Shown: positions 22,809-28,181 of the stretch, in pieces
How the letters are laid out: every line of letters begins with the position of its first letter
Position numbering within the stretch: position 1 is the first letter of the stretch
DNA from: a virus
Direction: 5' to 3' (one strand)
IMG/VR virus record: IMGVR_UViG_3300045135_000761
Location: 1 to 33,558 of that record
DNA: 33,558 nt
Notes under the pieces: model-generated
Databases searched by the model: none
Told to the model about the DNA's origin: nothing
What the model saw: the letters and a program-made list of their open reading frames with translations, nothing else
Translations under genes and position numbers: made by a program

Positions 22809-22826
22809 AATGAATTATTGTAGATG

Positions 22827-22834
22827 TATTTATA
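22827..22834 (-). promoter_or_regulatory. T4-type late promoter TATAAATA for gp48 operon
   Basis: A perfect late box on the minus strand in the short divergent gap, 35 nt upstream of the gp48 ATG. It is the first box of the whole leftward structural operon. Confidence 0.75.
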
Positions 22835-22842
22835 GGGAAACT

Positions 22843-23325
22843 GTGGCATATAAAGGCAAATTCACACCCAAGAATAAACACAAATATGAAGGTGACCCCT
22901 CGAACATTATTTATCGTTCATTGTGGGAACGTCATTGTTTTCGATGGTGTGATGAAAACCCCAAGGTTAAAAAGTGGAGTAGTGAAGAGGTTGTCATACC
23001 CTATCTCTATGAAGTCGATAGACGTATGCATCGGTACTTCATGGATCTTAAAATTGTCTTTGAGGACAAGACCGTGTTGGTTGAAATCAAACCAGAGTCC
23101 CAAACAAAACCACCCACTGGTGCGAGACGAACAAAACGGTATATCTCTGAGGGTTACACCTATGTCAAGAACATGAATAAGTGGGAGGCTGCAAACGAGT
23201 ACGCAAAAGACCGTGGGTGGGAGTTTCAGATATGGACAGAGAAGACCGAACCACTCAAGTCCATGATTGGTAAACCGTTGAAGAAACTCAAACCCATGCC
23301 AAAATACTCTAGGAAAAAGAAATGA
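22843..23325 (+). CDS. 4: Head completion nuclease-like protein gp4
   Basis: Strongly like T4 gp4: AYKGKFTPKNKHKYEGDP at the start, then IIYRSLWERHCFRW, VVIPYL, YFMDL and LVEIKPE. The spacing of Glu 29, Asp 68, Glu 81 and Lys 83 fits the TnsA/restriction-endonuclease fold known for this family. gp4 acts late in head maturation, before tail joining. T4 gp4 has 150 residues; this has 160. I chose the GTG at 22843, with AGGG five bases upstream, over the in-frame ATG at 22810, because the T4 protein starts exactly there with MAY. The C-terminal tail (IGKPLKKLKPMPKYSRKKK) is partly repeated after the next gene. Confidence 0.92.
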   Translation: MAYKGKFTPKNKHKYEGDPSNIIYRSLWERHCFRWCDENPKVKKWSSEEVVIPYLYEVDRRMHRYFMDLKIVFEDKTVLVEIKPESQTKPPTGARRTKRYISEGYTYVKNMNKWEAANEYAKDRGWEFQIWTEKTEPLKSMIGKPLKKLKPMPKYSRKKK

Positions 23326-24119: not shown

Positions 24120-24701
24120 ATGGCAAATTTATTTCAGAAAGTATCGTATGACGCATTCCGTGCGGGGATCACACCTCGAACGCGGCAATCCCGTGCATGG
24201 TTTAGAAAGAGAGTTCAGAATCTCAGGGTTAATCGACGTGAGTTGATGGCGGACGAACCCATCGAAAAGAAACCTCGAACCATCATTGGTAACATGTACA
24301 TGTTTTTCTATGATGCAAAGATGAGGGATACACTTCCATACTGGGATGCGTTTCCGTTGATCATTGCGATGGGGCCTGCACCAAAGGGAATCTATGGTAT
24401 GAATCTTCACTACCTACCAATCCCCCTTCGTGCAAAGTTTCTAGATAACTTGATGGACATCACAAATAACAATAGATTTGATGAGACAACCAAATTCGAA
24501 GTGTCTTATCAAATGATGAAGTCAGCATCTAAAATGCGTTACTTCAAACCTTGTTTCAAACATTACCTGACAAGTCAAATCGAAGGACAGTTTGCATACA
24601 TCCCTCCCCCCGAATGGGAGATTGCAACCTTTCTACCGGCCGCACAATGGCAAAAGGCAGGACAGTCTGCGGCGTACAGAGATTCTAGGAGAATGATTTA
24701 A
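24120..24701 (+). CDS. Conserved T4-like phage protein of unknown function (193 aa)
   Basis: I recognise the pattern from marine T4-like phages but not a function: ITPRTRQSRAWFRKRV near the start, GNMYMFFYDAKMRDTLPYWD at about 57-76, GMNLHYLPIPLRAKFLDNLM, then YFKPCFKHYL and PPEWEIATFLPAAQW. It is basic at the N-terminus, with no membrane segment. No good ribosome binding site lies near the ATG; AGGAAAAAG is 13-22 bases upstream, inside the gp4 remnant. Its stop overlaps the next start (TAATG). The context (head completion gene before, tail-tube genes after) suggests a virion or assembly role. Confidence 0.8.
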   Translation: MANLFQKVSYDAFRAGITPRTRQSRAWFRKRVQNLRVNRRELMADEPIEKKPRTIIGNMYMFFYDAKMRDTLPYWDAFPLIIAMGPAPKGIYGMNLHYLPIPLRAKFLDNLMDITNNNRFDETTKFEVSYQMMKSASKMRYFKPCFKHYLTSQIEGQFAYIPPPEWEIATFLPAAQWQKAGQSAAYRDSRRMI

Positions 24702-25453
24702 TGAAGATCCCAACTATTGACGATCTTAAAGCAAAGATAGGTGCGTCGGGTGGTTACGCAAACCCTAGTCTATATTATGTCAGTCTACCCACACTCAACC
24801 TGAACAGCGAACAGAAACAATCCATCGAGTTCTTTGTCAAATCAATCTCTCTACCTTCGCGGTCACTATTAACTATAGAACGAGAGATGGGAACAGACAT
24901 GACCAAGGTTGCATATGGTTATCAAAACGATGATATCACCATGACTTTTTTAGTCATGAACGACCACCTCACTCGGCAGTACATCGAAAACTGGCAACAA
25001 TTCATTGTCAAAGACTACAATCCGAATGTAGAGAACAACTTTGCGATTGGTTACCCCGATGACTACATGAGAGATATTCGAATCTTTCAACTAGACCGTG
25101 GTGCAGGATTTCCTATTGTTAACACTCAGAGAAGGGTCGATGCAGGTATTATAAATATCAATCTTGGTGCAAAGGTTGACCTTCGTCAGAGTGCGAGTGT
25201 CAAGTACACTTGGCATCTAATGGATGCATTCCCGATTGCGTTTCAACAAGAGACGTTATCGAATGATGCAACTGGGACAATCAGTGAAATCACTGTGACA
25301 TTCTCTTATCGTAAGTGGAAGGGATATCAGTTACAAGGCGGTAGAACAACTGGCATTGATGTGAGCACAAGCGTCACCACCGACATAGGCCAACAGATAG
25401 GTGGTAAGATTTACGACGTGATTGGAAGAGTAAAACGCGGCTTAAGAATTTAA
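24701..25453 (+). CDS. 54: Baseplate tail-tube initiator gp54-like (tube fold)
   Basis: A 250-residue protein with the tail-tube fold pattern: FFVKSISLPSRSLLTIERE near the start, a middle strand set (DDITMTFLVMNDHLTRQYIENW) and a C-terminal AFPIAFQQETLSNDATG followed by ISEITVTFSYRKWKGY. In T4, gp54 (320 aa) sits on gp48 and starts polymerisation of gp19 tube rings. Its place beside gp26, gp51 and gp29 fits the T4 order 29-48-54. It could alternatively be a diverged tube protein gp19. AGGAG lies nine bases before the start. Confidence 0.65.
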   Translation: MKIPTIDDLKAKIGASGGYANPSLYYVSLPTLNLNSEQKQSIEFFVKSISLPSRSLLTIEREMGTDMTKVAYGYQNDDITMTFLVMNDHLTRQYIENWQQFIVKDYNPNVENNFAIGYPDDYMRDIRIFQLDRGAGFPIVNTQRRVDAGIININLGAKVDLRQSASVKYTWHLMDAFPIAFQQETLSNDATGTISEITVTFSYRKWKGYQLQGGRTTGIDVSTSVTTDIGQQIGGKIYDVIGRVKRGLRI

Positions 25454-25469
25454 TTATTGGAGATAAATC

Positions 25470-26159
25470 ATGGCATTACCAACTCTGAATGAGTTACCAA
25501 AATATACATTAACAGTACCTTCGACCGGTAAGAAACTAAATTACCGTCCTTATCTGGTTAAGGAAGAAAAGGTTCTACTTGTCGCATCGAGTTCTGAAGA
25601 CCCCAAACAGGTCATGAATGCGATTTACGATACCATCAAGGCCTGTGTTGAGGACATTGATGTATCGACATTGACCACATTTGATTTGGAGTACATCTTC
25701 ATTCAGTTAAGAATGCGTTCAACCGGTGAAACAAGTGAGGTTGTTATTCGATGTCCAAGTTGTAATGAACCTAACAACAAGATTATACCATTGATGGAGA
25801 TTGAGTGCACGAAATCCGATGCGAATCCAATCATTCCGATTAGTGACACCGTGACGGTCGAGATGAAGTATCCTAGTTATATGGATTTACCAGACAACAT
25901 GGATGAAACAGAGATTGGTTTTGGATTGGTTGCGTCAAGTATCAAGACGGTAATCAGTGGGGACGAAAAGATTGATGTGGCCGATGAACCAATTGAGTCC
26001 GTCATGGCGTTCCTTGAGTCTATGACCCAAGAACAGTTTAAAAAGATTACAGACTTTTTTGAAGATACACCAACGGTCAAATATGACTTAGAACTAGACT
26101 GTAAAGAGTGTGGTGAACATTCGACAATTGAAATTAAGGGGATGCAAAGTTTTTTTTGA
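25470..26159 (+). CDS. 26: Baseplate hub assembly protein gp26 (tail chaperone-like)
   Basis: A 229-residue protein matching the T4 baseplate hub subunit family (T4 gp26, 208 aa): LPKYTLTVPSTGKKLNYRPY, then KEEKVLLVA and a helical middle. Two Cys pairs (CPSC at 95-98 and CKEC at 211-214) probably form one zinc ribbon. It ends in MQSFF on a run of eight T residues that forms a perfect slippery heptamer. A -1 shift there would join it to gp51, giving a protein of about 295 residues. It helps hub and tape measure assembly and is usually not part of the finished tail. GGAG lies nine bases before the ATG. Confidence 0.85.
   Translation: MALPTLNELPKYTLTVPSTGKKLNYRPYLVKEEKVLLVASSSEDPKQVMNAIYDTIKACVEDIDVSTLTTFDLEYIFIQLRMRSTGETSEVVIRCPSCNEPNNKIIPLMEIECTKSDANPIIPISDTVTVEMKYPSYMDLPDNMDETEIGFGLVASSIKTVISGDEKIDVADEPIESVMAFLESMTQEQFKKITDFFEDTPTVKYDLELDCKECGEHSTIEIKGMQSFF
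26150..26156 (+). promoter_or_regulatory. Slippery heptamer T TTT TTT for -1 frameshift
   Basis: The last sense codons of gp26 are AGT TTT TTT before TGA, so bases 26150-26156 are X XXY YYZ with all T, in the correct phase for a -1 slip. The next codon after slipping (TTG at 26156) opens the gp51 frame. A short hairpin (ATGC/GCAT stem, five-base loop, 26161-26173) follows within five bases but is weak. Confidence 0.65.
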
Positions 26160-26356
26160 TATGCCTCGCGCATGAAGAACTGTCCAATCACTTTAAGGTG
26201 AACTTTCTGCTACAGAGGCATCACAAATATACGTTGACAGAACTAGATAATATGATACCTTGGGAAAGGGAAGTTCACACCATTTTAGTAATACAGGCGT
26301 TAGAAGAAGAAAAACAAGCAAGAGAGAAGGCTAGAAATGGCAATAACACTGGATGA
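26156..26356 (+). CDS. 51: gp51-like hub assembly factor, probably made by frameshift from gp26
   Basis: An open frame of 66 codons in the -1 frame relative to gp26. The sequence NFLLQRHHKYTLTELDNMIPWERE is like the small gp51/tail-chaperone proteins of marine T4-like phages. No ATG exists before the conserved part (the first is in NMIPWE), and there is no ribosome binding site at the TTG at 26156. This favours translation as a gp26 extension by frameshift. The C-terminus overlaps the gp29 start by 20 bases. Like the lambda G/GT pair, the two products would chaperone the tape measure. A separate TTG- or GTG-initiated protein is the alternative. Confidence 0.7.
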   Translation: MICLAHEELSNHFKVNFLLQRHHKYTLTELDNMIPWEREVHTILVIQALEEEKQAREKARNGNNTG

Positions 26357-28181
26357 CGTAGTATTAGAACAGATGCAAACCAACGAGACGTTGGGGATTC
26401 TTGTCGACAAAACAAATGTAATGATTGAGTTACAAGAGTCTGGATTCGATGGGTTCATATCGCAACTCAAAGAATTGTATCTGTTCATGGTGAACGATGC
26501 GTATACTCAGAATCGTCTTTCACGAGAACGACATCGTGAGTTAATGTCACGTCAAGAACAGGCACCTATAGTGGGTGGTGGAGGCGGTGATGATACTACA
26601 CCACCCCCAGTCGACGATTCATCCACTCTTCTCAAGGCAGGTATCTTCTCCGCTAGTGCACTTGCAGTCACAGAATTTGTTAAGGGATTTTCTCAATCTG
26701 TTAGACGTGACTTTGCACGACTGCGGAGTCGGGGTGGTATTCTTGGCAAAGATATTCTCAAACCTGTCAAAGACCTAAATGCCGCAGTAAAAGACCTATA
26801 CAAACGTAGAGGCACTGGTCAGTTTAATTTAAAATCATTAAAAACACTAGGTGCACAAAATACTCGAAGACTACAATCTTTCTTCGAAGGTATCAAAAAA
26901 ATAGAAGATGGTCTCAGTGGTTTCTTTAAAGCACTCAAACCACAATTCCTATTTGACATTGTAGATGATATCAAAGGTGCGGGCAGTAGGATGAAAGACT
27001 TCTTCACCAACAATCGGTTGGTGCAAGGAATTAAAAGTATTTTCTCTGGCACAGGCATGAGTCGATTCATGGGCGCACTGGGTGGATTCTTTAATGTCTT
27101 GGGTAGGATTGCATATCCTATTCTACTCGCATACGAAGTAATCACTGGAAGCATGAAAGAAGTAGAAGAACAGGGTGAAAATGCCAGTCTGCTTGAAAAG
27201 GTGCTGGCAGGGTTTATTGGTGCAGCTAAAGGTGTGTTTAGATTTGTCTTCGGATTCTTTGACCTTCTAAAAGATGTCACTTCTTGGATTGCGGAGAAAC
27301 TTGGGTTCCTCGACTTTGCGAAATTCCTAGATTCGTTCTCGTTTGCAGAAGGTGCAATCGACCTTATATTTGGCACAGCAGATAAAATTGGTAAATGGTT
27401 GGGTGGTGCAATCTTTGATTTGGTTCAATGGTTTGGTTCAATTCCAGAAAAGATTGGTAATCTGTGGGATTCGTTACCTTCCCTCAGTGACGTAGGAAAC
27501 GCACTGTCCGAAGCAACGAAATCGATGGTGAGAGCAATCCTACCACCCGCTGACTTTGCAAAGTTTGAAATACCTAAACTCGACACATGGTTCGGAACCA
27601 TTGGTGGTGGTACAGTAGACCTGAATCCAATACCAGACGCTCTGTATGAGTGGGCAAATTCTCCAGCACCTAAACGAGAATCAGTTGCACCGCCTGCACC
27701 GGCCGGTGAAACGACTGCAACTTCGGGGGTGACTTCGGGGGCAACTTCGGGGGTGACTTCGGGGGAGACTTCAGGTACGTCCGCTGAGGAAATGGTTGAT
27801 ACTATGATACGAGGAGCAGAAAGACCGACGACTCAAGAAAGAGTAAGACAAGCGAGACAAGCGAGCGAGGATAGTCCACAAGAAAATCTGAGTAGTCCAA
27901 CAACCGGTTCGTATAGTGTAGAGATTAAAAATCCAGATGGTTCAAGAAGTATGGTTCAGGGAATTCTCGAAGCACCTGAGTATGACCCAAGTAAAGATAG
28001 GTATACCAACGATTTGTTTGATGAAAGCCAGTTCCAATCAATGGCACCAATAACCAATATCATTGATAGTTCGGTGAATACTTCGAATCAACAGAATGTT
28101 AGTGCAGGAGGAGGGTCTCGCCCGATGTCGTCACCATTGAATGACAATCGAACACGGGCGAGTGCATGGTCAGGACTTTAA
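26337..28181 (+). CDS. 29: Tape measure / hub protein gp29
   Basis: A 614-residue protein, close to T4 gp29 (590 aa), directly after gp26/gp51. The N-terminus is charged and helical (VLEQMQTNETLGILVDKTNV). Hydrophobic helices typical of tape measures lie at about 97-120, 240-265 (GALGGFFNVLGRIAYPILLA) and 280-315 (LAGFIGAAKGVFRFVFGFF). A Pro/Thr/Ser/Gly linker follows from about 440, with five TSGx tetrapeptides at about 462-481. gp29 sets tail length and may be ejected ahead of the DNA. AAGG lies eight bases before the ATG. Confidence 0.85.
   Translation: MAITLDDVVLEQMQTNETLGILVDKTNVMIELQESGFDGFISQLKELYLFMVNDAYTQNRLSRERHRELMSRQEQAPIVGGGGGDDTTPPPVDDSSTLLKAGIFSASALAVTEFVKGFSQSVRRDFARLRSRGGILGKDILKPVKDLNAAVKDLYKRRGTGQFNLKSLKTLGAQNTRRLQSFFEGIKKIEDGLSGFFKALKPQFLFDIVDDIKGAGSRMKDFFTNNRLVQGIKSIFSGTGMSRFMGALGGFFNVLGRIAYPILLAYEVITGSMKEVEEQGENASLLEKVLAGFIGAAKGVFRFVFGFFDLLKDVTSWIAEKLGFLDFAKFLDSFSFAEGAIDLIFGTADKIGKWLGGAIFDLVQWFGSIPEKIGNLWDSLPSLSDVGNALSEATKSMVRAILPPADFAKFEIPKLDTWFGTIGGGTVDLNPIPDALYEWANSPAPKRESVAPPAPAGETTATSGVTSGATSGVTSGETSGTSAEEMVDTMIRGAERPTTQERVRQARQASEDSPQENLSSPTTGSYSVEIKNPDGSRSMVQGILEAPEYDPSKDRYTNDLFDESQFQSMAPITNIIDSSVNTSNQQNVSAGGGSRPMSSPLNDNRTRASAWSGL
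27720..27779 (+). repeat. Five 12-bp tandem copies coding for TSGx in gp29
   Basis: Copies of acttcggggg plus two variable bases start at 27720, 27732, 27744 and 27756, with a weaker fifth at 27768. They encode TSGV, TSGA, TSGV, TSGE and TSGT in the linker of the tape measure protein. Confidence 0.9.

Follow-up and report, generated by a model that had tools for sequence, protein, structure and literature searches.

A predicted -1 frameshift on a poly-T heptamer links gp26 to a gp51-like domain at the tail chaperone locus of a T4-like virus

How does a T4-like virus make a gp51-like protein segment that lies in the -1 frame directly behind gp26 and has no ATG of its own? We analysed this locus in a 33,558-nucleotide stretch of viral DNA (IMG/VR record IMGVR_UViG_3300045135_000761, positions 1 to 33,558), which we refer to as the window. 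A preliminary description had proposed a programmed -1 frameshift in the manner of lambda G/GT, joining gp26 to the gp51-like part, and this is the best reading across tests of the heptamer, frame, start codons, coding character and homology. Judging from sequence, we consider it very likely that the locus encodes the tail assembly chaperone of a T4-like myovirus, and that a -1 slip of some ribosomes on T_TTT_TTT yields, beside gp26, a 295 aa long form (TAC-NC).

All features of this locus lie on the plus strand. The gene order is tail tube, gp26, -1 ORF and probable tape measure, the last assigned by position and weak similarity. The tail tube protein gene (gp19/gp54-like, 24701-25453; PHROG 45, E 1.6e-36) stands directly upstream of gp26, and the first 20 nt of the tape measure candidate (614 aa, 26337-28181) lie within the 3' end of the -1 ORF. 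That a tape measure gene follows directly had been claimed before: its position agrees, and its identity comes from a match to PHROG 1272 (tape measure) at E 0.021, with no detectable match to T4 gp29. The candidate also carries a short tandem repeat, GVTSGATSGVTSGETSG, at 27720-27785. Elsewhere in the window, a gp4-like head closure gene (22810-23325) contains a strong TnsA-like endonuclease domain (PF08722, E 1.9e-19).

gp26, the short chaperone (TAC-N), occupies 25470-26159, encodes 229 aa and matches Pfam T4_baseplate PF12322 (E 2.8e-57) and PHROG 150 (E 6.9e-59, profile positions 5-232 of 282). Its 3' end reads AAG GGG ATG CAA AGT TTT TTT TGA, with zero-frame codons AGT at 26148-26150, TTT at 26151-26153 and TTT at 26154-26156, followed by the stop codon TGA at 26157-26159. 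The run of eight T residues (26150-26157) thus holds an in-phase T_TTT_TTT heptamer at 26150-26156 with the stop directly 3' of it, confirming the ending given in the preliminary description. Codon shuffling of the window's genes places the chance of an in-phase T_TTT_TTN at about 0.0006 per codon. The range first assigned to the signal, 26142-26356, therefore spans the end of gp26 together with the -1 ORF.

In the -1 frame a TAA at 26135-26137 is followed by open sequence from 26138 through the heptamer to a stop ending at 26356. Counted from 26156, the C-terminal part (TAC-C, gp51-like; 26156-26356) comprises 66 aa, so that the predicted frameshift product has 229 + 66 = 295 aa. This part matches PHROG 634 at E 7.8e-22, a family annotated as baseplate hub assembly catalyst (gp51), and a second match covers positions 227-278 of PHROG 150; tblastn found it in 587 phage records. 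An immediately open, gp51-like -1 frame with no ATG before its conserved region had been described at the outset, and both points are borne out. GTG is absent there too, and the sole nominal start is a TTG at 26156-26158 that the slip site itself creates.

The preliminary description had pointed to heptamer conservation in relatives as a check on the frameshift. Two IMG/VR scans with window proteins gave 160 loci, and further junctions came from isolate genomes and three more gp26 scans; one entry (L185) was left out as a wrong match, with 24% identity and an unrelated downstream ORF. In all 161 loci tested, the window's copy included, the gp51 part lies in frame -1 with respect to gp26. An in-phase TTTTTTN near the gp26 stop occurs in 174 of 174 distinct junctions outside the distant groups considered below. 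The window-type group accounts for 151 of these and keeps the heptamer position in every one; the rest belong to phiM12-, Astolliot-, KVP40/nt-1-, Ah1- and YB07-type phages. N may be T, C, A or G, giving Phe or Leu in the zero frame, so the hexamer is kept and a slip would still be possible while the zero-frame residue changes.

Clustering at 60% gp26 protein identity reduced the 174 junctions to 69 clusters, in which codon 1 of the site is always TTT and the base before it always T. Elsewhere in the same genes TTT makes up 63% of Phe codons, and TTC and C-ending codons are common. The joint log10 P of -24 for codon 1 and the preceding T treats the 69 clusters as independent and is hence overstated. 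With all 174 junctions retaining the site and its synonymous positions constrained, the heptamer is conserved beyond coding needs. Past the heptamer the -1 segment has a median of 66 codons and a minimum of 58 across the 174 loci, compared with a median of 5 codons for the +1 frame past the stop. By its pattern of variation the -1 segment evolves as coding sequence, with third positions of the -1 frame the most variable (0.56 vs 0.36 and 0.21).

These comparisons bear on other ways of expressing the C-terminal part. The -1 ORF could be a separate gene (gp51) whose translation is coupled to gp26 termination, either by re-initiation or from TTG 26156 or another weak start. That TTG is nominally available, and GenBank records often annotate a short gp51 apart; the distant relatives L173, L175 and L177 use a TAATG overlap without a heptamer, and KVP40-type and YB07 phages combine the heptamer with TAATG or TGATG. 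However, the TTG exists only when TGA follows the heptamer directly, which holds in 11 of the 69 clusters, the stop being TAA or TAG in the other 58; its spacing of 14 nt from a Shine-Dalgarno (SD)-like AAGGGG is also far for initiation. No ATG, GTG or TTG precedes the conserved part in the -1 frame at 120 of the 174 loci. Since the TTG depends on the TGA stop and most relatives are startless, the C part is unlikely to be expressed on its own. A free ORF would, moreover, not explain why TTTTTT is kept in gp26, and T4 has the same domain only within an N+C protein. We consider a separate gene highly improbable here.

A slip by RNA polymerase, adding a U on the T8 run so that normal translation gives the fusion, is a little less probable again. 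The window's run is eight T residues long, and an added U would give the identical peptide (SFFLICL), so mass spectrometry alone cannot tell ribosomal from transcriptional slippage. Yet 97 of the 174 junctions have only 6 T, as in T TTT TTC, and retain the in-phase tandem slippery pattern. Six T residues are too short for efficient polymerase slippage. Least credible is a sequencing or assembly error that splits one continuous gene: homopolymers are prone to such errors, but exactly 8 T appear in all 15 distinct sequences with at least 55% gp26 identity (window included), which come from separate assemblies and so make a read error unlikely, and many other junctions have TTTTTTC or TTTTTTA and an unchanged frame relation, in agreement with isolate genomes.

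Ribosomal frameshifting, the reading we favour, also fits the relation of the two parts to T4 proteins. T4 gp51, a single gene product of 249 aa, matches PHROG 150 in one piece at positions 13-280 and PHROG 634 with its C-terminal part, whereas the PHROG 150 match of T4 gp26 ends at 235. In profile comparisons with hhalign, whose E-values are single-pair and not database-wide, window gp26 matched the T4 gp26 family at E 2.5e-28, and the -1 part matched the gp51 C-terminus (columns 200-253) at E 1.6e-9. The in-silico frameshift fusion aligned with the T4 gp51 family over 235 columns, almost end to end (E 3e-22, single pair), and T4 gp26 aligned with the N-terminal part of T4 gp51 (E 7e-18, single pair). 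Because the fusion resembles the one-gene T4 gp51 and T4 gp26 resembles its N-terminal part only, gp26 corresponds to TAC-N and the predicted frameshift product to TAC-NC. On these profile alignments, the long N+C form in T4 is the product of gene 51, and gene 26 supplies the short one. The earlier statement that T4 makes gp26 and gp51 separately therefore stands as to there being two genes, but gp51 is the whole N+C protein, and the -1 ORF matches only its C-terminal part.

The AlphaFold model of gp26 (pLDDT 86) matched predicted T4-like gp26 proteins in BFVD with E-values down to 1e-18, including gp51 of Acinetobacter phage ZZ1. NCBIfam offered no informative family, a PDB sequence search with the gp26 profile gave no match, and the model had no significant match among PDB structures. 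The highest-probability PDB match listed was the HK97 tail assembly chaperone 2OB9_B, a weak hit (probability 0.41, E 1.2, TM (target) 0.38) that would be faintly in keeping with a chaperone.

Candidate stimulatory elements flank the heptamer on both sides; were both under selection, the site would be a dnaX-type signal made up of 5' SD, heptamer and 3' stem. The SD-like AAGGGG at 26136-26141, 8 nt 5' of the heptamer, is a possible 5' stimulator: its predicted duplex with the anti-SD tail reaches -7.0 kcal/mol, the site is locally strong (-5.6 vs a gene mean of -0.4 kcal/mol), and a purine-GG is near universal at this position among relatives. As an independently selected stimulator the element did not stand out from a coding control of K/E/R/Q-Gly positions in gp26 (p 0.09). 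Other such positions reach similar energy, so the motif is at most a candidate for selection.

On the 3' side, a 61-nt hairpin (26161-26221, fold z -2.2) begins 4 nt after the heptamer. Its outer helix pairs AUGCCUC (26161-26167) with GAGGCAU (26215-26221), and inner helices pair 26170-26177 with 26203-26210 and 26188-26192 with 26197-26201. Within the window's clade (38 sequences), pairing stands at 90% in the outer helix, 87% in the second and 75% in the third. Three pairs of the outer helix show changes on both sides within this clade, such as AUGUCUC/AGACAU in L027 and L121 and GUGCCUG/CAGGUAU in L026. Double-sided changes occur in 30 cells, compared with 13 in shuffles, and the clade's covariation score exceeds those of all shuffles and slides. 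Codon choice is skewed in the same places: Arg is AGG at the 3' arm in 34 of 42 cases (background 45 of 419, 11%), CTC is used at the stem arms in 41 of 42 cases (8% background), and TGC accounts for 36 of 38 Cys codons there (26% background).

Across relatives, downstream folds have greater stability than shuffles (mean z -1.5 vs -0.3 in gp26 controls). A structure common to the whole family was also sought: no single one is shared, and the covarying stem occurs in the window's clade only. RNAalifold on its own gave a weak consensus of just 3 pairs, and cyanophage-type relatives do not have the clade's stem; for these two reasons we regard the stem as suggestive, not proven. This downstream stem-loop, conserved in the window's clade with compensatory changes, may be new. 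Long stems also follow the heptamer in Astolliot (L169; GCAAGCCGA/UCGGCUUGC, 7 nt after it) and in Ah1 (L170; GACCCUC/GAGGGUU, 4 nt after it). As these sequences are unrelated and place their stems similarly, they suggest that a downstream stem recurs in other lineages.

Other phage groups depart from this arrangement. The heptamer is absent from 15 junctions, those of Ackermannviridae-type phages, Vibrio D506 and Pseudomonas Cygsa01. A TAATG takes its place in Dickeya phage Coodle, D506 and Cygsa01, and free expression of the C part seems to have replaced frameshifting in these distant groups. Most Ackermannviridae-type loci (L195-L208, e.g. L195 near 2304) have neither heptamer nor ATG. Their junction reads GA(A/G) ATT TTC ATT TAA TTT TTG AAA, and the C part lies in the -1 frame. 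TAATG occupies this position in their closest relatives, in Coodle (L175, also L193 and L194); the junction without it might work through an AUU start or through a single-tRNA slip on T_TTC. The phages nt-1 (L172), KVP40 (L191) and YB07 (L179) combine a T_TTT_TTC heptamer with a TAATG or TGATG overlap, which could allow the C part to be produced as a fusion and also on its own. In Syn19 (L162), S-CAM1 (L163) and S-CAM4 (L164) the C part appears as a truncated hypothetical gene or is unannotated, and no frameshift is annotated in those records.

We tentatively suggest, with rather less confidence than we attach to the frameshift itself, a broader picture. The marine clade would carry a three-part signal of AAGGGG, T_TTT_TTT and the 61-nt stem-loop with its covarying outer arms. 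T4-like phages would have at least three routes to the chaperone pair, namely a frameshift, a coupled start-stop overlap or duplicated genes; in KVP40-type phages the heptamer and TAATG occur together.

For the window, we infer the following course of events. Most ribosomes would stop at TGA 26157 and release gp26. A minority, perhaps helped by the SD-like motif and the stem, would slip back one base on the heptamer at 26150-26156, where both tRNA-Phe could re-pair with UUU. These ribosomes would then read the -1 frame to 26356 and produce the long form, which gains the 66 aa of the gp51-type C-terminal domain. If the pair works as lambda gpG/gpGT does, the tape measure protein would be coated by many copies of the short chaperone and few of the long one, and the extra domain of the long form would recruit tail tube subunits.

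If so, many marine T4-like genomes are probably misannotated where gp51 is listed as a gene of its own or is missing, and the real product of the gp51 locus is probably a frameshift protein, of 295 aa in the window. The junctions collected here form a large comparative data set in which one chaperone pair is encoded differently within a single phage superfamily, and make it possible to test directly how evolution led from frameshifting to duplicated genes in T4.

Among known systems, lambda G/GT resembles the window in that TAC-N has an X_XXY_YYZ heptamer in phase close to its 3' end and the -1 frame stays open beyond it. The window differs in having its zero-frame stop directly after the heptamer, and in its poly-T slippery site, that of lambda being G_GGA_AAG. 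In T4, genes 26 and 51 are separate, divergently transcribed from opposite strands and without frameshifting, whereas the window would produce short and long forms from one locus by a frameshift, the long form being known here from sequence alone. The abstract by Vladimirov and colleagues reportedly states that frameshifting is conserved in several T4-like groups and that T4 uses genes 26 and 51. A 2016 review described G-T frameshifting as conserved 'except T4' (PMC5009743). T4-like chaperone genes were identified by Vladimirov, Gautam and Davidson (Virology 2022), as cited in passages of PMC10885494 and PMC12846349; going by those passages, they are of the same gene family as the window's, with TAC-N/TAC-NC and poly-T slippery sites. 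The relevant part of PMC10885494 notes that some T4-like phages have a short gene and a longer fused gene in place of frameshifting, and that of PMC12846349, citing the 2022 study, treats poly-T as a known -1 signal in TAC-N genes of T4-like phages. The connection between the T4 and lambda systems drawn in the preliminary description thus holds but, from what these passages relate, is not new, having been proposed in 2022. As poly-T frameshifting was already reported for T4-like phages, the window carries a correct but known type of signal; what may be new is the covarying stem, together with the mixed states seen in other families. In a different phage lineage, phage Adele and the Vandenendeviridae and Andersonviridae have a conserved -1 frameshift like the window's in their tail chaperone, with an invariant GTTTTT at the end of TAC-N (PMC12846349).
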